Shown: one piece after another, positions 1 to 35,733 of the stretch
Layout of the letters: each line of letters begins with the position of its first letter
How positions within the stretch are numbered: the first letter of the stretch is position 1
IMG/VR virus record: IMGVR_UViG_3300032086_004090
Span: 1 to 37,997 of that record
Direction: 5' to 3' (one strand)
Origin: a virus
Length of the DNA: 37,997 nt
Notes under the pieces: generated by a model
The model's database searches: none
What the model saw: only the letters and a program-made list of their open reading frames with translations
What the model was told of the DNA's origin: nothing
Position numbers and translations under genes: made by a program

Positions 1-1513
1 TTCCGTATGCAGAATCTGGTTGGTAAGCATCAACAAAAAATGCTGGTGCCATTCCTCTAGGCAATAGTGAATCATCTTTATCAAAAGCATCTTTAGAATA
101 ATTATTATGTTCAATATTCATTTTACCATATATGGCAAAATCTATATCCTCTGCTAAACTATTAAATGATGTGCTAATATTAGGTCTAATGCTAATATGA
201 TTTTGTGTACTAGGTTTAAATGAATACAAAGGTTCTTGATTAGGAGAGGTTGCAACATCGTCTGTGCCGCAGACCAACTCGTTTGTAGCATCGGCATCAA
301 GACCCATACTAAAATATGCACCACGCGTAACAGAATAAATGTAATAAGCGCCATCTGGTATACCGCTCACATCTGAAGTATAAAAACCATCTAGACCATC
401 GTTAGAAGATGAATCGTATCCAGGTTTATTGAGGCCTGTATTTCCTTGACCTTGGCCACTTGCGCTTCCGCATATATCAATACTTAATACAGATACGCTA
501 TTACCAAGACTATCTGTAATTCCGTCAGTTACTGGAGTAAGATCTGTAACTTCTGTATCTACGTCTTCAGAATCTGTAAATAAGTAAGAAACTGATGAGG
601 CAAATTTTACATAAGTTGTTTCTCTCGTGGTTGCTTTGATGATAGCAAGGGTGTCGGCCATACCAAATTCTTTGTCAAAATCTAAACCATCAACCTGATC
701 TGCATCTAAAGGATCAGGAGTTCCAGTAGCTTTAAGGCCAAGACCTGCCCACGAGGGGCTAGATGTAGCAATTAATACTGTACTATTAGCTGTTGAAGCA
801 GGTCTTCTGCCATAAATATAACATGGTCTCTTTGGATATCTACTAAATATAGCGCCTTCAGCATCTAGGTAACTAGCTGGAGTCCAAACAGCAGCGCCTT
901 CTTCTCCTGAGTGTGTTAAAATAGAGCCACGATAAGCTGGAAAAGCTCGACCAATTTGTATATTTTCGCAAATAAACTGTGCATCATTTCCAGAAGCATA
1001 AATTTTTGGAGGTATAACAGTAGGATCTTGTCCTGGCTCTTCTGCTGGTATAATTTTTTCTGCTTCTAAATATAATTGAGGAAATGATTCTAATTTATTG
1101 CCAGAAGGATTAATCCATAGAGCATTAGATCCTCCCATTAGGGGCATTGTTAATTCACCGCTTACAACAACTATATTGCCATCGACACCGTGAGTATCAT
1201 CTGTTTCCTTGTATATAAGACCACCAGATGCTCCTACATATCGTGGCTGTACATTGCCTGAAGCATCGACGGATCTTATATTTTGCGCTCTTAATTCTAT
1301 TGCTCTAATACCGCTAGCGTCAACAAATCCAGGAGTAATAAGTTCTATGCCACTACCACCAACAATATACATAGTGGTTGGAGCAACAAGGCAGGAGTAC
1401 TGACTGCTGAGTATGTTTTTATATGTAGTATCTATAGACCTATTACCAGTTTCTAGCTTTAATCCATTCCAGTCATTTGGGCCTAGTATTGTATACCATT
1501 TTTCAGTTGCCAT
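1..1513 (-). CDS. Partial virion-associated (tail tip/baseplate-like) protein, C-terminus outside window
   Basis: An uninterrupted reading frame runs from an ATG at 1511-1513 to the left edge (504 codons plus one base), so the C-terminus is missing. The start follows the stop of the upstream fibre gene by 14 bases, and an AGGGAA site lies about a dozen bases before the ATG, partly inside that stop. I do not recognise the family. The protein is rich in Ser, Thr, Gly and Asp, without signal peptide or membrane helix, and repeatedly uses words such as DASG and Gly-Ser turns, as in beta-rich phage structural proteins. A short acidic stretch near residues 310-325 (DSEDVDTEV) may be a linker. Position, directly after the tape measure and the tail-tip candidate, suggests a tail tip, baseplate or fibre component. 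This role is inferred from context only. Confidence 0.75.
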   Translation of the reverse strand, partial: MATEKWYTILGPNDWNGLKLETGNRSIDTTYKNILSSQYSCLVAPTTMYIVGGSGIELITPGFVDASGIRAIELRAQNIRSVDASGNVQPRYVGASGGLIYKETDDTHGVDGNIVVVSGELTMPLMGGSNALWINPSGNKLESFPQLYLEAEKIIPAEEPGQDPTVIPPKIYASGNDAQFICENIQIGRAFPAYRGSILTHSGEEGAAVWTPASYLDAEGAIFSRYPKRPCYIYGRRPASTANSTVLIATSSPSWAGLGLKATGTPDPLDADQVDGLDFDKEFGMADTLAIIKATTRETTYVKFASSVSYLFTDSEDVDTEVTDLTPVTDGITDSLGNSVSVLSIDICGSASGQGQGNTGLNKPGYDSSSNDGLDGFYTSDVSGIPDGAYYIYSVTRGAYFSMGLDADATNELVCGTDDVATSPNQEPLYSFKPSTQNHISIRPNISTSFNSLAEDIDFAIYGKMNIEHNNYSKDAFDKDDSLLPRGMAPAFFVDAYQPDSAYG

Positions 1514-1527
1514 AACTATTTATTTCC

Positions 1528-4500
1528 CTATGTAAAGAAACCTGGACCTGTTAAATTATCAAAAGGAGGATTATTAGGATCTATTTCATCCGGTTCTGCT
1601 CCTGGTTCAAAAAGATCAGGTGGGTCCGCATCCAGACAAGAGCATCCGCCACCAGCCAAAGCTACACAATTATTGTCTGCACAAGGACATATGCAGTATA
1701 TGTCTCCGGCATCTGATGTAGCAACTTTAGTCGCATTAACCAATAGTGGACTGGTCAAAGGTACGTCTGCTGTTCTAATAAATTCTTTGCAGTTGTTTGG
1801 GCATAATCTACCAACTTCAACATCTGCAGGTGGTACCCATGTATCACTAAGATCTGGTATGACCTCGTTATCTGCGTTAAGCTCTACTGAAACACTACCA
1901 GTACCGGTATCGGTGGCTGGAGCTCCTCCTATGCCTCCAACAACATCATTACCAGTACCTCCAGCAAAACTACCACTACAATTAATGTATCTACTAGCTG
2001 ACTTTATAATACCATCTCCAACTATAATATGATCAGCATAAAGCCATCCCTTAACGCTAAGATTTGCATAAGTATTGCATACTAATCCTTCGTTATCTAC
2101 TCCGCTACCAACTAAATATGGGTCCTCTCTTTTTACAGTAACAGCAGATACGTCTTGACGAGCAAAATTATCTAAATTTTCAAAATAAGCTGATTTATGC
2201 CATTCGTTTAGATTGGGTATATAATATTTTTGATCAGCATTTTTAGTAATAATATAAGAATTTGTACCTATTTCAAATACGTTGTATGCTCCATCATCAA
2301 TGACAGAATCTATATCAGAAGGAGAAAGTGGGGCGTTATTATGAAGCCAGTTAATATACCTTAAAGAGCTAATATAGTCTATAAATACCAACGGCTTATT
2401 ATCCATACCTGTTTTAACGCTATATTCCCAAGGAGAGCCTGAGCTTGATCTGTATCTTGATATACCACCAACAGTTTCTGAACCCATTCTGCTATCGTAC
2501 AAACCTCTATCGTTATACTGAGCAACAGCGTTTAGGAAATCTACATATTGAGCATTGGTCACAGGATATTTGCCGATCCTGTATTTCTGTTTTACATTTC
2601 CAAGATTAAAAATTTCTGATGGGATATACTTATCGTCATCTTCAGAATATTCATAAATATATTGAGAATCTGCTATATTATTTTCGTATCCGACTGTAGC
2701 AAAATCCAAATTTAATCCTGTTGCATTTTCTATATAAGAGGTAATGGCAGGAGTTTCTAAGCCTGGTATGCTAGCAATTCTCAAGCCTACATCATCATAA
2801 CCAGAAATAGCATTAAGAGACTGTAAGCTTCTTAAGCCACTAGATTGTATATCATTACCAGAAAAATCTAAGCCTGAAGCACTAGTTTTCCAAGATCCAC
2901 CAGCAGCATATATAAAACTAGGTCTAGATGTGACAGCATTATCATCAATCCATTCGTATACATTGCCATTTTGATCATAGGTACCAATAAAAGAAGGTCT
3001 ACCATTTGTACCAACATCAGATAATAAACCGGTATATAAAACGTCGTCTGCGTTTTCATTAGTCCTATTATAATTAGCAGAATTATTAGAGTTACTAATG
3101 CCTTCACCGCTAGCGTTTAAGGTAATAGGAAATGGATCATATTCCTGAGCTATTCTGTCTCTTGGACAAGGTTCACACTTTGGCAAACTCATAGCAAAGG
3201 GATGATAGAAACCAGAAGGAGTATTTATCTTGCCAACATTAGCTTTTACATATAATGCAGGCTCTGGGTCCGTGCCATAAACTCTAAAATCAATCTCTTT
3301 ATTTCCTTGATTGAATGTTGTATCTACTCCAGCTCTAGAGCTTAATATATTTTGTGAGGCATCACTTACTGTTCCAGGTGCTACATTTTTACCCATTACA
3401 AAATAGCCACCCTTAGTGATATTGATCATTTCTATATCAGTAAGCTCTGTGTTTCCTAATGATTGTCCAACCGTTAATTCTGTTACTATGCCATCATCTA
3501 CAAAAACAGAACCAATCGTTCTGTAAGTTTTTACTCCATCGATTAATAGTTCTATCTGATCACCAACCTCATACTCTACAAAAGAAACAGATGTTTGAAA
3601 GATAATTTGTCTATTATATATAGTAACTAACCTAGTTGGATATTTATACCAATTAATATCATTGTCTGTTCTGAAAAATTCATCAATATCGTAAATACCA
3701 GTAATGTAGCCATTTGTTGCAGTAGTTAGGACTTTATTGGCTGTGATTGGTAATTTGGGGGATGTAGCAGCTACTATTTGATTATTTTCATCTATAGATA
3801 ATAAATTATCCTCAGCAATAGTTGGAATAATAATAGTATTAGAAGATAGTTCTGTAGCAGAGGCTATAGGCAAGGAAACAGTATTTGCTGAATTATTGCC
3901 TATATTAATAGTATCTGCTTCTAGATTAATAGTGGATGCATTTACGGTAGCTGTGCCATCTGGGCTATTAATATCCATATCAGTACTACTAGAAATATTA
4001 ACACCAGTACTATTTATTTGTACTAGCTCGCTGCCGTGTTTCAAGGTAATGCCAGAATTGGCATGTAATTCAATATTATTAGTAGAAATACCTAAACGTG
4101 AATAATCTGATGAGGTTCTAAAACTACGAATGTAGGAACCGGCATCAGAAGTGTAAATATCGAATCTACCTTTTCTGTTAGCATCATCAGCAAGCTCTGC
4201 CACACCCTTTAATCTAACGTAGTCAATATCATTAGAAGTATTGTCTGATGAGTTAGATGCCATATAAATTTCTGAAATAACATCATTATCTGATATTGTA
4301 GTGCCACTAGGCTTATGGAATAGTGTGATGTTAGCAGCATGACAGCTTGATCTGTTATCTAGTCTAATACCTTCAGAACATGACATATTGACTAAATGCA
4401 TCAATGTTTGTGGCCTGGTGCCAGATGGGATGTTCAAGCCCAATCTGCCATCATAGTCAAAATAAAGATTCCTGATGCCGCTACCATTAACAATAAAATT

Positions 4501-5331
4501 ACTATTATTATTTTGTTGATTGATTAGTGTGTCGTAATTACCAGAAGTTGGCAGCACGGAAAACGCATCTTCTTCGGAGTTGGATCCAAGTAGTAGTTTG
4601 TGCTCTATACTATCCCAATATAATTCTGAGCCAGTAAAGTTACCAGCGCCATCATTGTATTGTATGCTACCAGCCGCACCATCAGCAGTTGATAGTGCAG
4701 TAAAGTCTTGTGCAGAGAACTGGTTAAAGGACACGCCAGGATTGTTGCTATCTTTATGATTTAAAATTTTCCAACTATTATTAACAGATAATAATCTACA
4801 GCCATCGTTAATGAGTAGGATCTTCAAAAGAGATTTGTTTGAATCTTTGATGAAGACTTTGTGGCTACCTTCTACATGCTGAAATTCCAACACAATATTA
4901 TCGGAATCATTAGCTTTGGGTAGAAATACGTCTATGTCAGAATCATTAGAATCCAAAACATAAATAGCAGATATGTTATCTGTTTTGAAAGAAGAATTTT
5001 TTAAGATAATATTTTTAAGACCAGAGTTAAAATTGTAAGAATTAGCATATATGTAAAATTCATTTTCTACGCCAAAAAAACTACCAGTATTCTTTTTATT
5101 CAATACCTTAAATTTTTCTACTATAATTCTACCATCTGGTTTTTGCTTGACTAAGCCTATGCCAGTCTCCCAGTGAATACCGTTTCTGGCCAAATATGGC
5201 ACATAGGCATCGCTATGCTGGTTAGAAAGAGGGTTAAATTCTGCTAATTGTCCCGTAACTAGAAAGTGGTCCTTTTTTTCACTAACCGTACAGCCTATAT
5301 TGTCAAACAGATATATGGGATAATTAAGCAT
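1528..5331 (-). CDS. Large tail-tip/fibre protein with permuted FGE-sulfatase-like (C-type lectin fold) domain
   Basis: This 1267-residue protein follows the tape measure, where tail-tip and receptor-binding genes usually sit. Residues 1-700 are Asn/Ser/Gly-rich, beta-type sequence resembling phage fibre shafts, including a PxLPIT-type junction near 525-530. Residues 735-855 match the C-terminal half of formylglycine-generating-enzyme (SUMF1) domains: SANYN, a LSDVG step, GTYDQNGNVYEW, GGSW and DDVGLRIAS. Residues 873-1052 match the N-terminal half: DFATVG, NIADS, KYRIGKYPVTNAQY, INWLHN and IPNLNEWHKSAYF. The two halves are thus in reversed order. FGE catalytic cysteines are not seen, so the fold probably serves as a binding surface. 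A Gly-rich linker (1120-1150) leads to a C-terminal cluster of eight Cys (1177-1232) and an acidic, Pro-rich tail. The ATG start has AAGGAA just upstream. Adhesion or receptor binding is inference. Confidence 0.8.
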   Translation of the reverse strand: MLNYPIYLFDNIGCTVSEKKDHFLVTGQLAEFNPLSNQHSDAYVPYLARNGIHWETGIGLVKQKPDGRIIVEKFKVLNKKNTGSFFGVENEFYIYANSYNFNSGLKNIILKNSSFKTDNISAIYVLDSNDSDIDVFLPKANDSDNIVLEFQHVEGSHKVFIKDSNKSLLKILLINDGCRLLSVNNSWKILNHKDSNNPGVSFNQFSAQDFTALSTADGAAGSIQYNDGAGNFTGSELYWDSIEHKLLLGSNSEEDAFSVLPTSGNYDTLINQQNNNSNFIVNGSGIRNLYFDYDGRLGLNIPSGTRPQTLMHLVNMSCSEGIRLDNRSSCHAANITLFHKPSGTTISDNDVISEIYMASNSSDNTSNDIDYVRLKGVAELADDANRKGRFDIYTSDAGSYIRSFRTSSDYSRLGISTNNIELHANSGITLKHGSELVQINSTGVNISSSTDMDINSPDGTATVNASTINLEADTINIGNNSANTVSLPIASATELSSNTIIIPTIAEDNLLSIDENNQIVAATSPKLPITANKVLTTATNGYITGIYDIDEFFRTDNDINWYKYPTRLVTIYNRQIIFQTSVSFVEYEVGDQIELLIDGVKTYRTIGSVFVDDGIVTELTVGQSLGNTELTDIEMINITKGGYFVMGKNVAPGTVSDASQNILSSRAGVDTTFNQGNKEIDFRVYGTDPEPALYVKANVGKINTPSGFYHPFAMSLPKCEPCPRDRIAQEYDPFPITLNASGEGISNSNNSANYNRTNENADDVLYTGLLSDVGTNGRPSFIGTYDQNGNVYEWIDDNAVTSRPSFIYAAGGSWKTSASGLDFSGNDIQSSGLRSLQSLNAISGYDDVGLRIASIPGLETPAITSYIENATGLNLDFATVGYENNIADSQYIYEYSEDDDKYIPSEIFNLGNVKQKYRIGKYPVTNAQYVDFLNAVAQYNDRGLYDSRMGSETVGGISRYRSSSGSPWEYSVKTGMDNKPLVFIDYISSLRYINWLHNNAPLSPSDIDSVIDDGAYNVFEIGTNSYIITKNADQKYYIPNLNEWHKSAYFENLDNFARQDVSAVTVKREDPYLVGSGVDNEGLVCNTYANLSVKGWLYADHIIVGDGIIKSASRYINCSGSFAGGTGNDVVGGIGGAPATDTGTGSVSVELNADNEVIPDLSDTWVPPADVEVGRLCPNNCKEFIRTADVPLTSPLLVNATKVATSDAGDIYCICPCADNNCVALAGGGCSCLDADPPDLFEPGAEPDEIDPNNPPFDNLTGPGFFT
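1636..1803 (-). other. C-terminal cysteine cluster of the tail-tip protein
   Basis: Eight cysteines occur in 56 residues (1177, 1181, 1213, 1215, 1217, 1222, 1230, 1232) with the spacing CPNNC, then CICPC, NNC and CSC. Elsewhere this protein has few cysteines. The arrangement could bind metal or form disulfides at the tip of the fibre. No known family is recognised. Confidence 0.5.
2178..3129 (-). other. Circularly permuted FGE/SUMF1-like domain inside the tail-tip protein
   Basis: In normal FGE-sulfatase domains the order is YRIGKYPVTNAQY, then the WLHN and NEWHKSAYF block, then the aNYN block, then GNVYEW, GGSW and a GFR-type ending. Here the last three elements (bases about 2769-3129, residues 735-855) precede the first two (bases about 2178-2715, residues 873-1052). 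The join between the natural C- and N-termini is a short linker (856-872) and the new ends fall in the loop that normally links NEW(Y/H)KAAY to the aNYN segment. All hallmark blocks are present once, which argues for one permuted domain and not two broken ones. Confidence 0.7.
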
Positions 5332-5364
5332 TTTGATTCCTTGTTGTATCTATAGATAACACAA

Positions 5365-5376
5365 TATTATACACCT
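5365..5376 (-). promoter_or_regulatory. Candidate phage promoter motif AGGTGTATAATA before tail-tip gene
   Basis: In the gap between the tape measure stop and the tail-tip start, the minus strand reads AGGTGTATAATA. The GTGTAT core (5369-5374) lies 37 bases before the ATG. The same core is found at similar distances before five other genes. It contains TATAAT but has no convincing -35 hexamer. A 12-base palindrome, TATCTATAGATA (5347-5358), sits between motif and start. Confidence 0.45.
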
Positions 5377-5388
5377 ACTAATTGATAA

Positions 5389-8300
5389 TTATTTGTAACG
5401 CTGTGGAATAACAATAGATCCTTCATTAGCTAGTCCTAAATCTCCAAAAGCTTTCTTAATAGCACTGTCAACTATGCTTTCTGCTGCCTGGGTAAGACCA
5501 GTAGCACCTGTTAAATTAACCTGAACATTGCCCGTAAATTGAATTTGTGATGGAATGCTAATGCCAGATAGGCCATTAATAATATCTCTTACACTATTGG
5601 TAAATGACGCAATGGCGCTGATAGAATTTTCTGAAAGACTAATACTTTCCAATACAGAAGCTACTGCTGTGGCCCCTGTTGTAAGAGCTTCGCTAATGGC
5701 TGTTCTGGCTGATGAAATACTTTGCTTGTTGATTTCTGCTTGTACAGGTTTTGCGGAACTGACTCTATTGTTGGCTGTTACCCGACCAGCATCTGCGTAA
5801 TATTTAGGTTGAACAACACCACCATAAGCAAATTTTTGAACCATATCACCTGCTGATACGCCACTAGGGCCAGAATTATTGATAGCTTTGAGTAGTGGTA
5901 GGTGTTTTTGTGTGGCTTTTCTATTAATAACAAACTCACCAGGAGTCAACATGGCTGGTACAGTGTCTGTGCCTTGAGGTTGGAAATTTACAAGAGTACC
6001 ATTAGCCGCATATATCAAACCTCCACGAGCTCTGGTTTGTGGTTGCATCGCTTTTTGTTGTTGCGATCTAGCAGCTTTAAGTTGATCTAATTTGTCTTTA
6101 TTTGGTATAGCTCCTAATACTCCTCCAGTAAGCAAGAGCAAATCTCTATTTAATTTGTTAAGATCTGCATTTTCTGCAGGATTAATTGCGTTATTTGGAT
6201 CTGATAGGAACTTATCTTGCAGAGTCAAGTGCTCCGTAATACCCTGGATAAGCGGAACAATTCTCTGATATCCATTTTGACTCAATACGTTATTAAGTGG
6301 TGTTGTTAGGTTCTTTCTAGTTTCTCCAGGAAATACACTATAAGGATTAAGAACCATCTTGCCGATATCTTTGAATGTTTTAGGTGCTTGAGCTTCGCTT
6401 GCTTGACTAGAAGAAAATGTACCTGCTTGAGCATCCACCTCTGCTAATTGCACCTTACCGCTTTTAAAAATATCAGCAATAGTTTGATCACCAACTGTAA
6501 GATTACTATCAACAGTCTGATCTACAGCAGCAGCATTACCACCCATAAATAATGCGCCCTGCTCTGTTAAAAATCTACCATAATCTCTGATAGCTGAAGC
6601 AGCACTTCTTGCGTTTTCTATATTAATAGGTGATATATTACCTCTTCTGTCTGGCGTATATTCAGATATTCCTAATTTAGCTAAGCCGAAAGCTTCGTTA
6701 CCTGAACCAAAAGCAGAGAATATTTCTCCAAGACTTTTTAATTGTCCATAAGCATTAGCAAAATTATCCCTACCACTTCTGGCAAAGCCTCCAACGGTAT
6801 CGCCAGCCCTAATAAGTCCAGCACCATACTCTGCAAGATTGGCTATATCTGATATATTAGGAAAAGCTATTCCAGCATATCTTAACGCCCCAGTAACTGG
6901 ACCTACAACTGCTTTAACGATACTTTGTGCGGTTTCCAGACTGTCAAAAACACTTTTGCCACCAGCATCCTTTACTAAATCAGCAGTTTCGCCTCTGCTA
7001 ATCTCAGACCCAACCTGAGATAGAATTTTATCTTTTAATCTTAATAGGGTATCAGATATATAAAATGGTTGAGATAGCGGCTCTAGCTCTCTAGCGTTGC
7101 CAGAAGGATCTATTTGAGCCATCGCCTCATCTTGTATTTTTTTAAGCATGAATGCCCCTACAGATGAAGGATTATATGGCTGTTCATTGTTTAGAATTTT
7201 TTGTTTTTTATCATATTTTGCTGCAATATCATTGTTGTAATATTTTTTAAGAGATTGCTCTAAAGCATTTTGATCTGGGAAAAAGATTTCGCCAGCACCA
7301 ATAAGAGATTTGCTTTCGTCAGATGCTATAAAGGGATTAACATCATATAAACCACTTTTTGTGCTCATTGCAGCCACTACGCCTTTAATATTCTCGGCTT
7401 CTGGTTTGGTATAGCCGGTTGTTTTGGAATACTTTGGCATATCTATAGTTTTATAAGCATAGGCTAAATTCAAATCTTTATCTGGAAATTCATCCCCAAA
7501 TATTTTAGCAGTATTGAGTCTTACACTGGCCTCTGTTTTCTGTCCTAATACAAATTTACTATTCTCTATAGCTTCTCTTTTTGCGGTTTCAGCCTCTCCC
7601 CTAAAATATTTATCTATGATTTCTTGAGCTTTACCTTCCTGTACCCAAGGAAATTCTTTAGTTGTGGTATTATCCTTAGTTACTTTAAATGGGCTCGCAC
7701 CTTGATAAATAGAAAAATCTATAGGTTTAGGTAAAAAGTTTGTAACCCTATCATTCCAGGAGTCTTTCAGATTACTATTAAATACTGCCAGATCTTCTGT
7801 TCCTAAATTAGCAGCGCCTTTAAATTGTTCGGATAATAAATTATTTTTTATAACTTTGTACAACCCTGGTAGTGTACCAGAGAATAAAGATTCTAGAACA
7901 GCATCTTGTTTGTTGACGTCTATAATAGCAGATGACAAAGTATTAAAGTAAGAAGCTTTATTATTCTTTAGTTCATTAAGCAATTTAATATGGTTTAGTA
8001 GTTTTGATTTATTTTCCAAAACGCTCTGAATAATACCATTAACTGACGATGGTTCAACATTATATTTGCTTGCTGTTTGAGATACCTGGTATGCGCTTCC
8101 TTGTTCTGATATTTTTAAACTACCATCTTCAGTAGGATGCAATGTTTTAACATTAGTATCAATAAGGTCTAATGGTCTTAGATTACTGCCGCTTGGAATT
8201 GCAGATAAACTAAAATATTTGTCCACAGGTTTAGATATAGTGTCTATAACGCTCTTCACGCTCTGATCAGTTAATGAGTAATTAGACAAATTTGATTTAT

Positions 8301-11300
8301 ATCTAAAATCTGTATCGCCAGGTGCTAACTTGCCACCGTCTACAAATTGAGAGGTGTCCAGCGATTGGTTTTGGAATTGATCCAAATATTTGTATAATTC
8401 ATTTGCTACGGCTGATTGAGTTGCTAAGCTTCTTGAATCATCATAATCTTTATCAGAATATTTATAGTCATTTTGTTCTATAACAGATGTGTTTAATTTA
8501 CCACTGCCCTTGAACACATCTGCAATCATTCCGTTTTTAAGATCTGCAATAGTGCCAGGTAAACCAGAAATAAATTTCTTTTGGGTAGCTCCTCTTGTTC
8601 CGGTAGCGGATCGTCCAAAATATTCAAATACAGGATAGTACAAGGCCGCCTGTCTATTACCTAGCATGGCATTAGATCCAGCTCTGCCAGCTATAGATTC
8701 ATTAATACGCTCCCACCAAGTCTGATCTCCTGGTCTATATACTTTTTCTATTCTTTTTGGTTTTCCAGCCTCCCAATGTTTAACCCCCTTTGTCAAATCA
8801 AAAGTCAAATCTTTAACGATGCCTGCCGCCTTTAATTGTACGAAATATGAGGCCAATGAACTAAGAACAGGAATATCATCCAAGAAACCAGCGTTATTGA
8901 TACGATCTCTCATTTTCTTAGTTATGTCAAGATCAGCTCCATAAACCGGATAATAGTCAGCTTGTGCAGCAAATAGATCTGAAAACTGTGCAGAATTAAC
9001 CAAGTCATCATTAATAAGATGGTAATCTTTGTCAGAAACTTTTACTCTGCTGGCTTTTTCTTCTGCTTTTTCTTGATCAGTATCTTTTTGCTTAAGATTA
9101 GGAGATACTAAACCACCAGCAGCATAATATCTTGTAGAAGAAGACTTTCCGCTATTTATAGATTTTAATAATGGTAAGTTTTTTCTGGTAGAATCTCTAT
9201 TCACAACAAATTCACCAGGAGTTAACATTGCTGGAACTGTATCAGTACCTTTGGGTTTAAACACAGTGTTAGCAACATTACCACCAACTGCCTTGTAAAT
9301 CAAGCCGCCAGTAGCTCTTCCTGGAGCTGGTAGTGGTCTATCTAAATCAGGTCTATTTGTTCCGCTCAGTATATCTTTTAGTTGAGCCTCGTCAAACCTA
9401 ACTGTAGTCTGAGCTATAGCAGCAGCGACTGCAGCTCCAGTCTTTTGGGATATGTCATTAGCTAAGTTTTGATTAATAAGAGCTAATTGAGTGTTGGCAT
9501 CGCTTTGTTTTTGAATAGCTTCATTATAAGTTTTTATAGCCTGAGCTTGTACTGGATCTGCTTGCGGGTTACGCATAGTATCCAGTATTTGCTGGAACAT
9601 AGGAGTAATTCCAACTCCACTTTGCTGTAGCATACTCTGAAGAACGTTAGCCTTTAATGGCTCAGCCTGATCTCCTAATAAAGGAGCAATCATATTGAAA
9701 AGCTCTAAATCTTGTTGTCTCTGTTCTGGTGAAGCGCCAAAGTTTAAACCACCAGCCATGTTTCTGCTAAGTCTTATGGCAGAATTATTAAGTTCATTTA
9801 GTTGTTTTGGTGTGCTGGTTACAAGTTTTTCAATAATGCCTATACCGGCTCTTTGTTTTTCCTGGGCTTGTTGCAGGGTGGATAAGGCGGCAGATGCAAG
9901 ATCGGTATTTTCTGCCATGTTTTGTAAAGCTGCTACGTTTTCGTTCAAGCTTACAGAAGTTTTCTGTATTTGTCTTTCAAATTCCAATACTGCGTCAGTA
10001 TCCTGTGCTGCCTGAGCTGCGGCCTTGCCTTCTTCTAAATTTTGTTTTTGGTTAGACAGACCAGTTATATTCCTTCTGATTTGAGTGGGATCTGTGGTTC
10101 CTCCTGTTCTGGCTGTAATCTGACTTTCTATAGCATATCTTTTTTGTGCAAGCGAAAGGTTTTTCCCAAGAGCTTGGGCTAAATTAGCATACCCATCAAT
10201 GATAATTTGTTGAGACCTTAAAAATCTGTTATTGGAATCTATCTGTAATTCAATAAGGGTATTGGTTGAAGCGGAAAGTTTTTGGAAAGCTGTTTGTAAA
10301 AATTTAAGATTACTGGTCACTGCATTGGTAGCAGTTTTGACAGAATCTAATGCTTTTCCAAGACCAGGAACTTGTTCTACAATTTCAGAAAAATCAATTT
10401 GATCATCGCCAGAAGTTCTGAGTTTAGATACTTGATTACCAATTTCTTTTGCTAGTTTATTAGATAGTTCTGGTGGTAAGCCAATGTTTGCTAACTGTTT
10501 AGAAATTGCAGTAGATACTTGCGCTCCTATGGCTTCATTTGTTGTGCCTGGGGCAGCATTGGCGCTAATACGATTAATAGTCTTTAATACTGTATCTTCT
10601 AAGGTTGCTCCAACCTCAAGAATCTTTGAGATATTTCCAGAACTAGCTCCGAAACCCTGAGTAGCTGCAGCAAAAGATCCCGACCTTTCTGCACTAGTAA
10701 ATCCTCTCGGAGACTCTAATACAGATATAAGTCTATCTAATTGAGGAGTTCCGGCAGAAGATGCTTGACCAGATAAAGATGATCTTAAGTCAGATGCGCT
10801 ATTTTCTAACTTATTTAATTCTGTATTGGCCCTAGCAATAGAGTCCTCCATATTAGAGAGTATTCTATTAAAAGAATATACAAGTTTATTGCTAGCATTA
10901 GCAAGATCTGCAAGATTCTTCTCTAGTTGTACCTGCTTAACTTTCTCTTGTGCTATTCTGGAGGCCTCTAATGTAATTATATTTTTTCTTCTAGCTTCTT
11001 TTTCCGCTTCGCTAAGATTGGTATTGCTATCAATAGCAAGAATCATCTGTTCTATTTCTGCATTGGAACGTGCTAATACTTCAGATTGTTTATCCCAAGC
11101 ATCAGCACTCATCAAATCCTCAATGGAAGCTCCAGATTTTAATTTTTCAACAAGCACATTCTCTATATTTTTAGCCTGCTCTTTAAAAATAGTAGATGAT
11201 TCTTTTGCAAGTTTGGGGAGGAGATCTGTCATGTATGATAGTTCTGCATTTACACTCATCAAACTTCTGAAATAGGCAGCAGTACCTTTTTCTTGCAAAA

Positions 11301-14300
11301 TAATGGAGCGATTAATAACACCTCTATCATCTCCATTACCGCTATATTCTACCGTATTTTGTACAACGCTAGCTCTATATTGACTATTCATAGCCTTTGC
11401 CGCATTAAGAGCTGCCTGCGTAGATTGCTCAACAGAGCGATCTAATGCTACCATAGTGGCTGGAAGTATGCTTCCTGTTTTGGCTATGTCTTCAAGTATC
11501 TCTGCTAATTTTTCTGATTCTGATTCTATTTTTTTTCTACTATCTTCTATGGTGAATTTTCTTGCTGCCTCCGAAGCATCGGCGTACGCCTTGGCTATCG
11601 AAAATGCCGCTGTAGCCGCAAGACCAATACCGGTAACAAGCGGACCTAAAGCAGCGCCTACGCCAGGTATTTTACCAGCCATATCTCCCAGAGTGTCAGA
11701 TACTAAAAGTCCAACACCAGCTGTAGTGGTCAAACTCTGAACGAAAGCCTGCGTAGAAGCAGTTGCAGCATCAGTTGCTTCAGCATTACTACTAAAAGCA
11801 TCTGCTAATAAAGGCAAGGCAATGGCTATAGCTGTAGTGCCTCCACCCATTCCTACACCACCACCACCTCGTACTGGTTTTCCTGATAATCCTTTTTGTC
11901 TCCAGGCTGGATCGCTAGGCATATTCATTCCGAGCATCCTGGTAGCTGCTCTTTTAGTGCTGGCCGTTAACTTTGCAACGGATGCTTTTAATTTCTCATA
12001 CACAGCGTCTATCTTAGAATATAGAGTACCTGTTTTCGCAACTCTGGCATTTTCCTGATCAATAATTGCAACTTTTTTGACTATTTGTCTATTAAGCTTA
12101 GCTAATCTTTGTGCGTATGTCGTAGTATGCGTATTACTGTTCATAATCGAAGCTATTTGTCTCTCGACTTCTTTAGCGATTCTAATCTGCTGCCTGCCGG
12201 TTCTTTGATTAAGATTGTTATTTAAACGAATAGAATCTGCTAATGGTTTTGACGCTCTCTCAATCATACGCATGCTAGCATTGTACTCGTACATTTGTGC
12301 TTCAGTCGCGCTAAACCCACTTATTAAGCCTCTCGACTCATCGATCAGTCTTTCAAAAGCACTTTTTAGCTTGCCGCTAATGCCAGAAGGTAGTCCTAAG
12401 CTTCCGAGCTGTTGTGATACTGTCGGTCCTCCATTTGCTAATTTTTGTACATCTCCTCCAAATTTGAATTTCTGTACCATGCCACCATCATGATATTTAT
12501 TTAAACGATTAAGATTACCGTATCCTATTGATCTAGCAGACTTTTTATTGATTACATACTCGCCCTCTTGGGCCATGATAGGTACTTCGCCACCAGAAGC
12601 CATTGCTTGCTTCTTATTTTTTGGATAGAATTTCTGTAAATATCTTTCGACCTGTCCTTTAAATTTAGCAATACTTTTTCCTCTCTGCCCCAAAGCTTTA
12701 CTATCTCCGACTGTTCTGGTAGCATCTGTTGGAATATTTCTAGCTATTTTAAATTTTTTAGCAACCGCCCCTAGCCCTGCAGGAAAATCTATAGGAGCAT
12801 TAGTAGAGTCCTTAACAAAAGGAGCACCAACAGCAGCCAATGCTGTTTCTAGATAAGAACCTACAGCGTTATAAAAACCAGTTTTACCTAAAGTGCCTCT
12901 AATTTGATCATCAGGGGCAACTGAAACACCTTTAACCTCTTGTGCTAAGCTTTTAGCAATGTCTCTTACTGTACCAACAAATTCATCCGTCATTTTTCCT
13001 TCGTATTTATCTCCGACACCTGGAGGTAATGTACCTCCCACTAATGTAACCTTTCTATTATCTGAAGTTTTAACTTTTTTATTAAATCTTGTTCCTCTTA
13101 AGCCAACCAGGCCGAAAGTTTTTGGGTAGGTAGCCGAATCTGATTGTTTTTCATCTGTATCTTTAGGTTTAGCGGCTGCTTTTGTTTTGTTCGCAGCTAT
13201 AGTTCTTTCGTTAATTCTGTTCCTAAGAGCACTAAGCACATCCACCTGTTGGTTTTGTAATGGTCTAGTCTCATATGTCTTTAGTAATTGCTGAGCTTGC
13301 TTAGGAGATAATTGCGTCAAAACAGATTTATTAATTTTTCCTGTGCCAGCAATCTTAATTTCGTCTACATTTCCTCCGTATTCAAACCTCTTGACAAACT
13401 TAACATTTCCTCCATCTGCAAATTTTCGTCTACCTGATGCAATATCTTTTATTGTTCCATCACCCATAGCTTTGGTTGCATCTGTTCTAATAACATAGCT
13501 ACCTTCTTCAAGCTGTGTATAGAAACTATCCCTCCTACCGCTGCCAGGCACTTTAGCTAAACCGCCACTAGCCATCTTGTCAGCTTTATTCATTCTGTCA
13601 AGGGTAGACATACCAATTTTTTTAGCAAGCTTGGGGCTTATAACAGTTTCGCCGGGCATTAAGGCAACGTCTACCATTCCTCCACTAGCATACGGTTTTA
13701 TAAGACCTCCATCAGCCTGCCCTTTAAGTCCGCCAAGAAAACCCTTGGTAAAACCAAACCCTGCTTTAAGACCCTTGCCGGCTAACAAGACTCCTAGTAC
13801 AGGAAGCACACCTTTAACGCTATCAGCTATTTGTATTAATGCGCTAGCGAGATCAAGTGCGCCTTTTGTAATAGCCTTAAAGCTATCTGTGCCACCGATT
13901 TCTCTAATAAGATCAAGGAATTCTTCTCTAACTTTTGCAATTTGATTTGCTAAGGATAATTGAGCTGTTGCTGCATCTTCTGCTAACGAACCCTGCCCTC
14001 TTTGTGCTACAGCCAGAGCCTGTTGCGCTGTTGCGAATTGTTGAATTAATGGAATCACTTTACCAATCTGTCTAAATCCACCAAGTTCTTCTACCAGTGT
14101 GGAGAATTTGACATCTCTCGGATCCAGTTGATTAAGCCCTTGAGATAATAACTGTATGGCTTTATAAGCACCAACAAATTTACCTTCAGCATCTTGTAGT
14201 TCTACACCGAATTCTCTAAGAGCATCAATAGTAGACCCTCTCTGTATTCTTGTGAAAATGGTTCTTAAACCAGTAGCGATTGTTTCGGCACTTTCACGAG

Positions 14301-15267
14301 TAGTAGCTCTAACGCTGGTAAAAACAGCAACAAATTCATTCAGAGCATCTGTACCTTCACTAACCCCACGACTAGCGGCAGCAAACACACCACCAGTACG
14401 CTGAATAGCAGCGATAATATCACCAGCTTCGACAGCAAAATTAGCTGCTACAGCATTAACAGAACCCAAGGCTTTTTCTAGGTCGCCGGCACTAATACCA
14501 AACTGACGCATTAAAGCAATACTACCTTCAACAGTTCTATTCAAATCATCAAATGATGGAGCTAATGCACTAAGAGCCAATGCCTTTAAAGCTTTTTCTG
14601 TTTCTCTTGCAGATAAACCAGCCTGAGCAAGCGTAGTAGATACGCTAATTAAATCAGAAGATGAAACACCAAGACTCTGAGATAGATTACTGATTTCTTG
14701 GGAAATACCTTTAAGACCAGCAGCAGTTTTACCTGTAACCTGCTGTAATCGCACTAGCTGTCTATCGAACTCCACAAATTGTTTAAAAGCTTGATTGATA
14801 GCATTAGTTAGAGAAAATACAGTACTTGTTACCAAGCTAAAAGCAGCAAATCTTTTAACAGCCAGGGCAGACTGTTTACCAAAACTTTCCATTAAAGTTC
14901 CAGCTTTACCTATTTGATTAGCAGCAGCTTGAGATTGCTGTCCTACGCTATTGATATTTTTGGCCGCATTTTGTGTTGTCGTGGCTGCCTTTGTAGCAGC
15001 AGTGCTAATATTATTAAACTGTTTACCAATACCAGATAAATTGCTAGAAACAGCCCTAGCAGAAGATCTAACATTGTTTAAGTTCTTTTGTAATTGAACT
15101 AGATTTTTATTAACTTGAGCAATAGATTTAGCACTATTAGGATCTATGGTGAGATTAACAGTTCCCTTGATATTCTTAAGCTGTTTGTTAATATTAGAAA
15201 CAACCTGTCTAACATTAGCAGGTCCTCTAAGATTAAGTTCTGCAGTTAAGTTAAAGCCTTTGGCCAT
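5389..15267 (-). CDS. Tail tape measure protein (TP901-type core), 3292 residues
   Basis: The tape measure sets tail length during assembly and is ejected with DNA. Residues 1-140 are helical with many Ala, Asn and Gln. Residues about 165-455 carry the TP901-family core, with the words FDRQLVRLQQVTG, LAQAGLSA, TRESAETIATGLRTIFTRIQ and VEELGGFRQIGKVIPLIQQF. Hydrophobic segments lie near 480-515 and 1143-1225. Five Gly-Gly/Gly-Glu modules (519-560, 566-602, 889-927, about 1985-2040, about 3078-3131) interrupt the protein. A globular domain at 716-880 lies between modules 2 and 3, and an insert of about 1040 residues lies between modules 4 and 5. Much of 960-1980 is predicted helical or coiled coil. 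AAGGGAA precedes the ATG. It is far longer than lambda's 853-residue gpH. Function is certain; the roles of the inserted parts are not known. Confidence 0.95.
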   Translation of the reverse strand: MAKGFNLTAELNLRGPANVRQVVSNINKQLKNIKGTVNLTIDPNSAKSIAQVNKNLVQLQKNLNNVRSSARAVSSNLSGIGKQFNNISTAATKAATTTQNAAKNINSVGQQSQAAANQIGKAGTLMESFGKQSALAVKRFAAFSLVTSTVFSLTNAINQAFKQFVEFDRQLVRLQQVTGKTAAGLKGISQEISNLSQSLGVSSSDLISVSTTLAQAGLSARETEKALKALALSALAPSFDDLNRTVEGSIALMRQFGISAGDLEKALGSVNAVAANFAVEAGDIIAAIQRTGGVFAAASRGVSEGTDALNEFVAVFTSVRATTRESAETIATGLRTIFTRIQRGSTIDALREFGVELQDAEGKFVGAYKAIQLLSQGLNQLDPRDVKFSTLVEELGGFRQIGKVIPLIQQFATAQQALAVAQRGQGSLAEDAATAQLSLANQIAKVREEFLDLIREIGGTDSFKAITKGALDLASALIQIADSVKGVLPVLGVLLAGKGLKAGFGFTKGFLGGLKGQADGGLIKPYASGGMVDVALMPGETVISPKLAKKIGMSTLDRMNKADKMASGGLAKVPGSGRRDSFYTQLEEGSYVIRTDATKAMGDGTIKDIASGRRKFADGGNVKFVKRFEYGGNVDEIKIAGTGKINKSVLTQLSPKQAQQLLKTYETRPLQNQQVDVLSALRNRINERTIAANKTKAAAKPKDTDEKQSDSATYPKTFGLVGLRGTRFNKKVKTSDNRKVTLVGGTLPPGVGDKYEGKMTDEFVGTVRDIAKSLAQEVKGVSVAPDDQIRGTLGKTGFYNAVGSYLETALAAVGAPFVKDSTNAPIDFPAGLGAVAKKFKIARNIPTDATRTVGDSKALGQRGKSIAKFKGQVERYLQKFYPKNKKQAMASGGEVPIMAQEGEYVINKKSARSIGYGNLNRLNKYHDGGMVQKFKFGGDVQKLANGGPTVSQQLGSLGLPSGISGKLKSAFERLIDESRGLISGFSATEAQMYEYNASMRMIERASKPLADSIRLNNNLNQRTGRQQIRIAKEVERQIASIMNSNTHTTTYAQRLAKLNRQIVKKVAIIDQENARVAKTGTLYSKIDAVYEKLKASVAKLTASTKRAATRMLGMNMPSDPAWRQKGLSGKPVRGGGGVGMGGGTTAIAIALPLLADAFSSNAEATDAATASTQAFVQSLTTTAGVGLLVSDTLGDMAGKIPGVGAALGPLVTGIGLAATAAFSIAKAYADASEAARKFTIEDSRKKIESESEKLAEILEDIAKTGSILPATMVALDRSVEQSTQAALNAAKAMNSQYRASVVQNTVEYSGNGDDRGVINRSIILQEKGTAAYFRSLMSVNAELSYMTDLLPKLAKESSTIFKEQAKNIENVLVEKLKSGASIEDLMSADAWDKQSEVLARSNAEIEQMILAIDSNTNLSEAEKEARRKNIITLEASRIAQEKVKQVQLEKNLADLANASNKLVYSFNRILSNMEDSIARANTELNKLENSASDLRSSLSGQASSAGTPQLDRLISVLESPRGFTSAERSGSFAAATQGFGASSGNISKILEVGATLEDTVLKTINRISANAAPGTTNEAIGAQVSTAISKQLANIGLPPELSNKLAKEIGNQVSKLRTSGDDQIDFSEIVEQVPGLGKALDSVKTATNAVTSNLKFLQTAFQKLSASTNTLIELQIDSNNRFLRSQQIIIDGYANLAQALGKNLSLAQKRYAIESQITARTGGTTDPTQIRRNITGLSNQKQNLEEGKAAAQAAQDTDAVLEFERQIQKTSVSLNENVAALQNMAENTDLASAALSTLQQAQEKQRAGIGIIEKLVTSTPKQLNELNNSAIRLSRNMAGGLNFGASPEQRQQDLELFNMIAPLLGDQAEPLKANVLQSMLQQSGVGITPMFQQILDTMRNPQADPVQAQAIKTYNEAIQKQSDANTQLALINQNLANDISQKTGAAVAAAIAQTTVRFDEAQLKDILSGTNRPDLDRPLPAPGRATGGLIYKAVGGNVANTVFKPKGTDTVPAMLTPGEFVVNRDSTRKNLPLLKSINSGKSSSTRYYAAGGLVSPNLKQKDTDQEKAEEKASRVKVSDKDYHLINDDLVNSAQFSDLFAAQADYYPVYGADLDITKKMRDRINNAGFLDDIPVLSSLASYFVQLKAAGIVKDLTFDLTKGVKHWEAGKPKRIEKVYRPGDQTWWERINESIAGRAGSNAMLGNRQAALYYPVFEYFGRSATGTRGATQKKFISGLPGTIADLKNGMIADVFKGSGKLNTSVIEQNDYKYSDKDYDDSRSLATQSAVANELYKYLDQFQNQSLDTSQFVDGGKLAPGDTDFRYKSNLSNYSLTDQSVKSVIDTISKPVDKYFSLSAIPSGSNLRPLDLIDTNVKTLHPTEDGSLKISEQGSAYQVSQTASKYNVEPSSVNGIIQSVLENKSKLLNHIKLLNELKNNKASYFNTLSSAIIDVNKQDAVLESLFSGTLPGLYKVIKNNLLSEQFKGAANLGTEDLAVFNSNLKDSWNDRVTNFLPKPIDFSIYQGASPFKVTKDNTTTKEFPWVQEGKAQEIIDKYFRGEAETAKREAIENSKFVLGQKTEASVRLNTAKIFGDEFPDKDLNLAYAYKTIDMPKYSKTTGYTKPEAENIKGVVAAMSTKSGLYDVNPFIASDESKSLIGAGEIFFPDQNALEQSLKKYYNNDIAAKYDKKQKILNNEQPYNPSSVGAFMLKKIQDEAMAQIDPSGNARELEPLSQPFYISDTLLRLKDKILSQVGSEISRGETADLVKDAGGKSVFDSLETAQSIVKAVVGPVTGALRYAGIAFPNISDIANLAEYGAGLIRAGDTVGGFARSGRDNFANAYGQLKSLGEIFSAFGSGNEAFGLAKLGISEYTPDRRGNISPINIENARSAASAIRDYGRFLTEQGALFMGGNAAAVDQTVDSNLTVGDQTIADIFKSGKVQLAEVDAQAGTFSSSQASEAQAPKTFKDIGKMVLNPYSVFPGETRKNLTTPLNNVLSQNGYQRIVPLIQGITEHLTLQDKFLSDPNNAINPAENADLNKLNRDLLLLTGGVLGAIPNKDKLDQLKAARSQQQKAMQPQTRARGGLIYAANGTLVNFQPQGTDTVPAMLTPGEFVINRKATQKHLPLLKAINNSGPSGVSAGDMVQKFAYGGVVQPKYYADAGRVTANNRVSSAKPVQAEINKQSISSARTAISEALTTGATAVASVLESISLSENSISAIASFTNSVRDIINGLSGISIPSQIQFTGNVQVNLTGATGLTQAAESIVDSAIKKAFGDLGLANEGSIVIPQRYK
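5865..6034 (-). repeat. Tape measure Gly-Gly/Gly-Glu module, copy 5
   Basis: The segment begins RARGGLIYAANG and contains TDTVPAMLTPGEFVINR and HLPLLKAINNSG. Fourteen residues, TDTVPAMLTPGEFV, are identical to copy 4. It precedes the conserved C-terminal part of the tape measure. Confidence 0.75.
9150..9315 (-). repeat. Tape measure Gly-Gly/Gly-Glu module, copy 4
   Basis: The segment begins ATGGLIYKAVGG and contains TDTVPAMLTPGEFVVNR and NLPLLKSINSG. It is nearly identical in its core to copy 5, about 3.1 kb downstream, suggesting a recent duplication or selection on both copies. Confidence 0.75.
12487..12603 (-). repeat. Tape measure Gly-Gly/Gly-Glu module, copy 3
   Basis: Residues 889-927 contain MASGGEVPIMAQEGEYVINK and end NLNRLNKYHDGG, matching the TLDRMN-type ending of copy 1. 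It directly follows the possible nuclease-like domain. Confidence 0.6.
12628..13122 (-). other. Inserted globular domain in tape measure, possible PD-(D/E)xK nuclease-like fold
   Basis: Residues 716-880 are not tape-measure-like. They start with FGLVGLRGTRFNKKV and contain YLETALAAVGAPF (Glu807), NAPIDFP (Asp827) and IPTDATRT (Asp848). A Glu in the first helix, an Asp after a strand and a second Asp-x-x step resemble the layout of the restriction-endonuclease-like fold, but the usual (D/E)xK lysine is missing (Thr850, Arg851), so it may be inactive or a false match. The domain sits between Gly-Gly modules 2 and 3. Confidence 0.3.
13462..13572 (-). repeat. Tape measure Gly-Gly/Gly-Glu module, copy 2 (diverged)
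   Basis: Residues 566-602 contain ASGGLAKVPGSG, then QLEEGSYVIRTDATKAMG. The Gly-Gly start and the EEGSYVI core align with the other copies, but the proline is replaced by Glu. Confidence 0.55.
13588..13713 (-). repeat. Tape measure Gly-Gly/Gly-Glu module, copy 1
   Basis: Residues 519-560 contain DGGLIKPYASGGMV followed by ALMPGETVISPKLAKKIG and a TLDRMN ending. The pattern GG, then pxxL.PGE.VI, basic residues, then a leucine-rich helix is shared with four other copies in this protein. A conserved module of unknown function. Confidence 0.65.
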
Positions 15268-21069: not shown

Positions 21070-22239
21070 TTATGCCTCGTATGTTATAATAACTTTCCAG
21101 GAATCTATAGAGCCAGATGCTATGGGGTCGGTATCCTGGATATACAATGACCAATCTCCGGAACCAACATGGCCAACCATATGGTCAAATGAGGATAAAT
21201 AATCTGGATTAGACTTGTCATAAATTCTACAGTATTCTCCATTATTGATATTGTGTAAATATTTTGTGGGCGCAGCCTTATTAGAGAATATGTAGTTAAA
21301 ATTATCTACATAATTTGGTATTTTGTGATTAGATGAAAGTAATATACCAGAGCCAGATGGCGGAACCAATGAAAATATTAAATCTTGAGGATTGGTATGA
21401 GATAGACCTCCTATTGCTATATCAATAGAATCAATAGTACGAATAGTTTCGTCCACAGATATGGTACCACTAACTGTACTCTCATCGAGTATTGTAATAC
21501 CTGAACCTGTATATACAACAGAATACAGATCTAGCGATAAACACTGATCTATACATAAATCTGATTGATTTACTCCGGTATCAGTATCAGTGGTGGTGTC
21601 ACCATCTGTACCTCCGTCAGAAACAGAATCAACCTGAGAAAAAACAGCATCGGTAGTAGTAGATGTAGAAAAATCCGCATTACTAAAAACGCAATTATTA
21701 AATATAGCATTAGAGAAATCTGTATTATTAAATTCACTAGCAGAAAAATTAGCATCTGAAAATATTAAATCATTGTAAGTTGTCCTTGTAACAGTATTGC
21801 CACCACCTCCACCGCAAGCACCTCTATATGAAGTAGAATTTGGACAAGATTTTAAATACGCTGTAGCTCTACCGATAATAAAAATATTGCCAGTGGCTAG
21901 TCTGCTACTAGAGACCAAGGTGTTATTTTGACTATAATCAATAACATCCAAATCATAGGAAGATTTGGTAAAATCTAATTGATTGGTTTCTGATCCTAAT
22001 AGTTTAAAAACTATTTGACCATCACTATTACCAGCAAGCGACCACCCATTTACATTTAGACTAGCATTGGCAGCAGAAGAAAAGGTTAAACAGCCGCCAT
22101 CGCCATCAACAGGCTTCATCTGCAATACTACGCATTTATTTAATAAATTTATAGGATTGTTATTTGAGTCATTGTATTGAAAAGTAATTTCAAAATCACT
22201 ACCTTGCTCTATGCTGTAATTTAAAGTGGCAGCTGGCAT
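21070..22239 (-). CDS. Modular virion protein: anchor domain, pentapeptide repeats, P/Homo B domain
   Basis: Residues 1-130 form an anchor domain (YSIEQGSDFEITFQY, NPINL, YDLDVI) homologous to the 134-residue protein encoded at 29742-30146. After a Gly stretch (GACGGGGG), residues 156-200 show about eight pentapeptide units with Phe at a fixed position (SDANF, SASEF, NNTDF, SNAIF, NNCVF, SNADF), predicting a short square beta-helix. An acidic linker with two Cys (201-235) leads to residues 240-388, which fit the P/Homo B domain found with proprotein convertases (HTNPQDLIFSLVPPSGSG, then GSGDWSLYIQD, GSIDSWKVII). No protease domain is present. It sits between adaptor and stopper genes. A neck or capsid-surface binding protein is likely. 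Confidence 0.7.
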   Translation of the reverse strand: MPAATLNYSIEQGSDFEITFQYNDSNNNPINLLNKCVVLQMKPVDGDGGCLTFSSAANASLNVNGWSLAGNSDGQIVFKLLGSETNQLDFTKSSYDLDVIDYSQNNTLVSSSRLATGNIFIIGRATAYLKSCPNSTSYRGACGGGGGNTVTRTTYNDLIFSDANFSASEFNNTDFSNAIFNNCVFSNADFSTSTTTDAVFSQVDSVSDGGTDGDTTTDTDTGVNQSDLCIDQCLSLDLYSVVYTGSGITILDESTVSGTISVDETIRTIDSIDIAIGGLSHTNPQDLIFSLVPPSGSGILLSSNHKIPNYVDNFNYIFSNKAAPTKYLHNINNGEYCRIYDKSNPDYLSSFDHMVGHVGSGDWSLYIQDTDPIASGSIDSWKVIITYEA

Positions 22240-29235: not shown

Positions 29236-29745
29236 TTATACTATGAACCAGTTGCTATTGTTAGAGGCAAAAGTTGAACTTTGAAATTTGAAATTAATAC
29301 TAAAAAAAGCAATATCATCTATTGTTTCAGAACCACTACCATGTACTATAACATTATTATCTCCAATATTTTTAACCAATATTTCATAACCTCCAATACC
29401 ACTAGCAGTTGGTAAATACACATTAACATCGGAAGAGCCAGAATCAACAAAAATAATCTGACTCTCTTGATCTAGATATGTATCACTACTAATATTCAAG
29501 TAACCTTTATTAGTATTTACACCAATATCTTCAGACTGAAGAACATCATTAATTTGTGAGGTAAGACCAATTATGTCAGCAGCGTGAATAACATTATTAG
29601 CCAGTCCTGTATTTACTTCTACTGTATTTGATACAGGGTCGCTGATTTCTATAGCAACAGAAGAGGATAGGTTGTCAGAAGAAGTATCAACTTCAATTGT
29701 ATAGTTATCTGTACTAACTGCTACCGAATATTCTTCATCGCTCAT
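29236..29745 (-). CDS. Short fibre-like protein with shared C-terminal knob
   Basis: I choose the ATG at 29743-29745, which overlaps the upstream stop as ATGA, over a GTG three codons earlier. The 169-residue product is acidic and Ser/Asp-rich; residues about 110-169 (DVNVYLPTASGIGGYEI, VKNIGDNNVIVHGSGSETID, ending NNSNWFIV) align with the C-terminus of the 587-residue fibre. This looks like a C-terminal knob with a short shaft. It is likely a minor head or tail decoration. Confidence 0.7.
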   Translation of the reverse strand: MSDEEYSVAVSTDNYTIEVDTSSDNLSSSVAIEISDPVSNTVEVNTGLANNVIHAADIIGLTSQINDVLQSEDIGVNTNKGYLNISSDTYLDQESQIIFVDSGSSDVNVYLPTASGIGGYEILVKNIGDNNVIVHGSGSETIDDIAFFSINFKFQSSTFASNNSNWFIV

Positions 29746-30146
29746 GTCTGGCACTCTAGTAGATCTGTAGATTTACTAAATCTCTTGACTATGGTTACTG
29801 TTCCATACAAAATTCTAATAGTATATTTACCACCATCGGCATAATAATCATCATCAGATTGTAACTCTAAGTCATATTTAGCGTTATTGAAAGAAAAACT
29901 ATTAGTCTTAGAAGCTGGAAATCTAAGATCTAGCCTTCCATCAGATCCTGTAATCTCAAATTTGTAATCGCTATAATCAAGGTTTTCAGTAGAAAAAATC
30001 TGAACATTATTATTGCTTGTTTTCCAAATTAGTCTAGCGCACCAATCGGTAATATCAACAGGATTACCATTAGCGTCCTTGTAAACAACAGACATATGAA
30101 ATGATGATCCTTGCTCTATGCTAAAGTCGTGTTTGCCTGCTGCCAT
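29742..30146 (-). CDS. Anchor-domain (IEQGS-type beta-sandwich) virion protein
   Basis: This 134-residue protein is a single domain: FSIEQGSSFHMSVVYKDANG, NPVDITDW, GRLDLRFPASKTNSF, KYDLEL, then YGTVTIVKRFSKSTDLLEC. The same domain forms the N-terminus of the P-domain protein (21070-22239). Related IEQG domains occur at the N-terminus of phage baseplate upper and fibre proteins. It is the first gene after the capsid terminator; AAAGGTG lies 8 bases before its ATG and a candidate promoter core 44 bases before. It probably attaches fibres to the virion. Confidence 0.7.
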   Translation of the reverse strand: MAAGKHDFSIEQGSSFHMSVVYKDANGNPVDITDWCARLIWKTSNNNVQIFSTENLDYSDYKFEITGSDGRLDLRFPASKTNSFSFNNAKYDLELQSDDDYYADGGKYTIRILYGTVTIVKRFSKSTDLLECQT

Positions 30147-35721: not shown

Positions 35722-35733
35722 TTCTATACACTA
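35722..35733 (-). promoter_or_regulatory. Candidate phage promoter motif ATAGTGTATAGA before portal gene
   Basis: Core GTGTAT at 35726-35731 overlaps the terminase stop codon by one base and lies 47 bases before the portal ATG. A TATAAATA octamer (T4-late-like) also lies in this gap but is not repeated in the other gaps. Confidence 0.35.

Follow-up and report, generated by a model that had tools for sequence, protein, structure and literature searches.

Reversed half order and circular permutation of an FGE-type domain in a phage tail protein

The domain described here belongs with the FGE-sulfatase/SUMF1-like family (PF03781), which comprises FGE, PvdO and the C-terminal domain of EgtB; family and motifs are held in common, and each half of the domain matches. 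The domain differs from PF03781 members in that its halves stand in the opposite order, its termini lie in a mid-domain loop, and it has no conserved catalytic cysteines. The nearest relatives found are PEP-CTERM-type or secreted FGE-like proteins of bacteria (Planctomycetota, Verrucomicrobiota and others), which exhibit up to 67% identity over the best segment with a viral query (L047), the sequence around the cut included. In these proteins, however, all domains examined run N-C, some as tandem N-C-N-C arrangements with a short linker. An earlier note had given N before C as the known order of FGE-sulfatase domains.

The variable proteins of diversity-generating retroelements (DGRs), Mtd, TvpA and TaqVP, possess a binding domain of the same FGE fold subtype, which in Mtd is carried in a phage tail. 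In these proteins and in the permuted domain alike, the variable segment lies ahead of a final strand; however, in Mtd, TvpA and TaqVP the variable region stands last, at the extreme C-terminus (PMC6328139), whereas in the permuted domain it occupies the first third, and no reverse transcriptase was found in 24 virus records of relatives. The permutation moves the putative ligand-binding segment away from the C-terminal place that it has in these three structurally known proteins. In the literature searched, which was limited to open-licence papers, nothing was found on a permuted FGE or C-type-lectin domain. The permuted family is large, is seen in environmental phage proteins, and is apparently undescribed.

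The window and its tail protein

The window, meaning the whole stretch of 37,997 nucleotides that was analysed (IMG/VR record IMGVR_UViG_3300032086_004090), is a minus-strand structural cassette of a tailed phage, which carries other virion proteins besides a terminase and a head-protein match. The relevant genes, and the parts of the permuted domain, are as follows.

35731-37755, minus strand: terminase large subunit
30264-31280, minus strand: major-head protein, weak match
5389-15267, minus strand: tail length tape-measure protein, 3,292 aa (PHROG 4211, E 9e-31; synteny)
1528-5331, minus strand: tail protein with the permuted domain, 1,267 aa, directly downstream of the tape-measure gene
2-1513, minus strand: next tail gene, truncated by the window end
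2152-3087, minus strand: circularly permuted FGE/C-type-lectin-like domain, aa 749-1060 (C-half, linker, N-half)
2770-3087, minus strand: C-half, first, NNSANYN ... GNVYEW ... GGSW ... VGLRIAS, aa 749-854 (PF03781 142-193)
2950-2967, minus strand: GNVYEW, aa 789-794
2890-2901, minus strand: GGSW, aa 811-814
2770-2790, minus strand: VGLRIAS, aa 848-854
2704-2769, minus strand: linker from ancestral C-terminus to ancestral N-terminus, aa 855-876
2152-2703, minus strand: N-half, second, FATVGYENN ... KYRIGKYPVTNAQY ... INWLHN ... NEWHKSAYF, aa 877-1060 (PF03781 34-122)
2545-2586, minus strand: KYRIGKYPVTNAQY, aa 916-929
2338-2355, minus strand: INWLHN, aa 993-998
2182-2208, minus strand: NEWHKSAYF, aa 1042-1050

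Two further proteins of the window (21070-22239 and 29742-30146) have a common N-terminal PHROG 1084 domain; in the longer one it is combined with pentapeptide repeats and a P-domain of the proprotein-convertase type.

The earlier note had claimed, from sequence alone, that the C-terminal hallmarks precede the N-terminal ones in one frame with each present once, and this held. An uninterrupted minus-strand frame (ORF 1528-5331) holds every hallmark motif once, C-terminal hallmarks first, and the PF03781 profile is inverted, with positions 142-193 matching the front half (E 0.004 taken alone) ahead of positions 34-122 in the back half (aa 913-1048; whole-protein E 3e-9). Given that PF03781 matches both halves, the motif matches are not due to chance, and the score of 37.3-42.1 bits, against a family cut-off of 23.3, satisfies the sequence criterion. 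The regular order of PF03781 halves, N before C, fails in this domain, which is a permuted variant of the family and no regular member. A profile from 75 relatives matches the solved structures of SUMF2 (1y4j, E 1e-11), 5aoh, TvpA (2y3c) and human FGE, and in chain alignments to 1y4j and 5aoh the front and back parts are inverted relative to the structure. The same half order is present in a 76% identical gene from an independent assembly and in about 20 further homologues, and nine close relatives were aligned. The reversed half order in the window tail protein is real.

The position of the gene is also conserved. In 20 related loci, defined as those whose protein matches the window tail protein outside the domain, sequence homologous to gene 2-1513 follows the permuted-domain gene in all 20, and the tape measure precedes it in 19, which is every locus reaching that far; in six contigs (L021, L028, L030, L031, L032 and L035) the permuted-domain protein and the next tail gene form one reading frame. 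Since related loci keep this position after the tape measure, the half order in the window is no local accident, and the window protein satisfies the tail-tip/fibre criterion of a gene that follows the tape measure. A search for copies without the domain, with the N-terminal 677 residues of the window tail protein as query, found none.

Half order, cut site and completeness of the rotation

Classification of viral ORFs with half-domain profiles yielded the order CN in 57, CNCN in 11, CNCNCN in three, a five-unit array in one and NC in one, the last of which ends in a bacterial PEP-CTERM-like tail. The corresponding counts for bacterial ORFs were NC 81, NCNC 9, NCNCNCNC 1 and CN 0. The bacterial relatives were retrieved with a CN-profile query, yet there was no CN among them, and among some 100 bacterial-genome domains none had the permuted order. 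To control for order bias the viral scan was repeated with an N-C query; CN again predominated, and the rest comprised NC proteins of the PEP-CTERM-like kind and a small number of NC domains within fibre-like proteins. IMG/VR matches in conventional order that end in a PEP-CTERM-like tail were counted as sequences of cellular type. The search for the reversed order in metagenomic phages, which the earlier note had proposed, yielded 157 permuted (CN) domain instances from IMG/VR contigs (107 after near-copy removal), which stand in arrays of up to about five units. When the CN profile was compared with 294 Planctomycetota genomes, none of the 20 matches spanned the whole profile, whereas virus records gave full-length single matches. 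For the permuted domain, tblastn found no match in 50,697 deposited phage genomes and one weak, partial match in plasmids. A bacterial C-then-N candidate in L110 was rejected, as it is a repeat region ahead of the domain. The two halves in viral contig L033 (2760-5279 and 5114-6331) lie in overlapping, different frames, owing to a frameshift in this contig or to an error in its sequencing.

For the cut site, the cellular profile was rotated between GSAG and NFAN and rescored on the viral domains, and cut points were scanned. Rotation at this site, which amounts to the alignment with swapped halves that had been suggested as a check, improved the fit of 110/110 viral domains, with the median rising from 199 to 283 bits; the cut-point scan has its maximum at the predicted cut, and the converse rotation test holds in 98/98 cellular domains. 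Aligned to a doubled cellular profile, the typical viral domain runs from positions 190-195 to positions 189-193 of 287, and a start near 192 with an end near 191 indicates that the rotation is complete, with no loss or duplication. Divergence is greatest in the window's own group, whose rotation scores show only a flat peak (common cut 171.6, a neighbouring cut 177.2); domains of this group begin at about 162-177 and finish at about 158-163, which is the same region, and have a diverged tail. The breakpoint is common to about a hundred dereplicated family members. The sequence criteria for a natural circular permutation, namely a complete domain, colinearity only when rotated and a common breakpoint, are satisfied.

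The core claim of the earlier note, a natural circular permutation in a tail protein whose new ends separate the NEWxKAAY helix from the ANYN segment, is supported by order counts, rotation scans, doubled-profile alignment, the confident single-domain model and independent homologues. Its suggestion that the permutation perhaps served to accommodate both ends in a fibre does not hold in general, as 85 of 153 permuted domains are internal to their protein, 39 are at its start, 27 are at its end and two span it.

Predicted structure, function and rival explanations

AlphaFold2, run on the permuted domain with 75 viral sequences, returned a single confident domain (pLDDT 83.5, pTM 0.85) in which both halves mostly score >90. 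Compared at rotated positions with the model of an unpermuted bacterial control, the permuted domain has 34% identity over 260 columns and a secondary-structure agreement of 0.26, against a null maximum of 0.14 from circular shifts. In Foldseek searches of PDB and BFVD, the 50 matches shown for the permuted model included no FGE structure and no single half of one. With the unpermuted control, although its model is the less confident, many FGE-family structures were retrieved. A search that follows chain order makes this blank partly expected, but that not a single half was recovered remains a reservation. The family also shows how a common phage binding module can escape sequential profile and fold searches. 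That aa 749-1060 form one FGE-type domain in three dimensions is inferred from the confident model and the matching secondary structure, which the chain-order Foldseek search did not back. In the TaqVP structure the N- and C-termini are antiparallel strands and the putative ligand site is the segment between strands 3 and 5 (PMC6328139); because the termini of this fold are antiparallel strands, joining the ancestral termini is structurally easy.

No cysteine exceeds 10% in the GGSW catalytic segment of the permuted family, and in the window this segment reads GGSWKTSASG, without the copper-binding cysteine pair after GGS. Formylglycine chemistry is not indicated, given the lack of conserved cysteines there. 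The earlier note had counted domains of DGR targets among the known FGE-sulfatase domains; no DGR reverse transcriptase (RVT_1) was found in 24 virus records of relatives, which may be fragments, and diversification by a DGR is unlikely on that account. Sequence entropy peaks between GNVxEW and GFR, equally so in cellular relatives, and by analogy this region would correspond to the putative ligand site of the fold. Fold and gene position make host binding at the tail tip the likeliest role, an inference that is untested and not shown.

The rival that survives best, though unlikely, is inter-subunit closure, in which the order is swapped in the chain and the fold is completed between neighbouring fibre subunits by strand exchange or a domain swap. 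Oligomers are the rule among tail proteins, and a monomer model cannot judge them. Two viral proteins (L186 1374-5921 and L208 2254-4857) also contain a lone C-half followed by about 140 unrelated residues and then an N-C domain, and the gene upstream in L208 (3-971) carries a lone N-half; these orphan halves may represent a split or rearranged domain. Against this rival, the C-to-N linkers are short and conserved, many domains are single-copy, some span nearly the whole of a small protein, and the monomer model is confident.

A chance fusion of two independent incomplete folds, rather than one domain, is very improbable. It can draw on the absence of an FGE-like Foldseek match for the permuted model, but the two pieces are exactly complementary, they are co-inherited with an identical breakpoint in about a hundred dereplicated members, and the model is a single domain with a pTM of 0.85. 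Also very improbable is a permuted enzyme that retains formylglycine-generating or related activity: homology to FGE, EgtB and PvdO at family level speaks for it, and the GGSW segment without conserved cysteines and the structural gene context in the window speak against it. Reversal of the halves by misassembly or frameshift, conceivable in a metagenomic virus record with a relative whose halves lie in two frames (L033), is all but ruled out by the single open frame and by the independent contigs with the same order, the 76% identical assembly and about 20 more. The earlier note had held that two incomplete folds, or a frameshift or misassembly, would refute it; neither applies, as the model is one compact domain and there is no frameshift or misassembly.

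Origin and variant architectures

The evidence establishes the half order of the permuted domain, that it is complete and recurs, that its gene keeps its position, that it is confidently predicted as a single domain and that its members cluster phylogenetically, and the tail protein in all likelihood carries a complete, circularly permuted C-type-lectin-like domain of the FGE subtype. Under this explanation, a short linker would join the ancestral termini, which are neighbouring antiparallel strands of the fold, and new termini would have opened in the loop that leads from the NEWxKAAY helix to the ANYN segment. The permuted chain is inferred to close on itself as a non-catalytic ligand-binding domain, without a predicted aligned error on the packing, and its display at the tail tip would serve to recognise the host, a ligand and receptor function that is untested. 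The putative binding face is the variable GGxW...GFR segment.

The permuted domain is likely to have arisen by excision of one C1-N2 unit from a tandem N-C-N-C protein. In tandem NCNC proteins of present-day bacteria the C1-N2 linkers are about as short as the one between the viral C and N halves, which shows that there is a plausible intermediate. This excision would probably have happened once, with spread and duplication among phages afterwards. On a FastTree phylogeny built on concatenated halves, 108 of 109 permuted rows fall in one clan (support 0.97), along with two domains of L186/L208; one row counted as CN in the tree, L283, is a chance pairing around a nested domain. A quick tree under a mixture model, a better substitution model, places three bacterial rows among the permuted ones, but the best tree in which the permuted rows all stay together scores 30 log units higher, without being rejected (p-AU 0.76). 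A single origin of the permutation is favoured but not proven. The duplication-and-deletion route to circular permutation becomes testable with natural sequences, because the family is large and has normal-order relatives, intermediate-like tandems, a second cut site and a nested domain.

In a bolder reading, which is also likely, a whole lineage of uncultivated phages uses the permuted C-type-lectin-like domain as its standard tail and fibre binding module, which has been shuffled in tandem arrays, re-permuted at a second site and made host to the insertion of an ordinary domain; if true, nature would here offer a case study in which the connectivity of a single binding fold is remodelled by phages. 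The second, different cut site is found in two independent contigs that are 61% identical, L220 (2896-3975, aa 33-345) and L280 (2779-5022, aa 78-376). It lies about 50 residues upstream of the common cut, such that the domain starts before the NEWYKAAY helix and ends just ahead of it, and the ancestral GNG...GNYANF linker is kept intact. The insertion is found in L087 (ORF 348-9536), in which the permuted domain (aa 818-1417) holds a complete ordinary N-C FGE domain at aa 1011-1294. In L036 (ORF 1-3399) and L212 (ORF 1-4716) a conventional N-C domain close to the Planctomycetota protein L110 comes straight after the permuted domain, suggesting recent acquisition and hinting at a possible planctomycete host for the phage.
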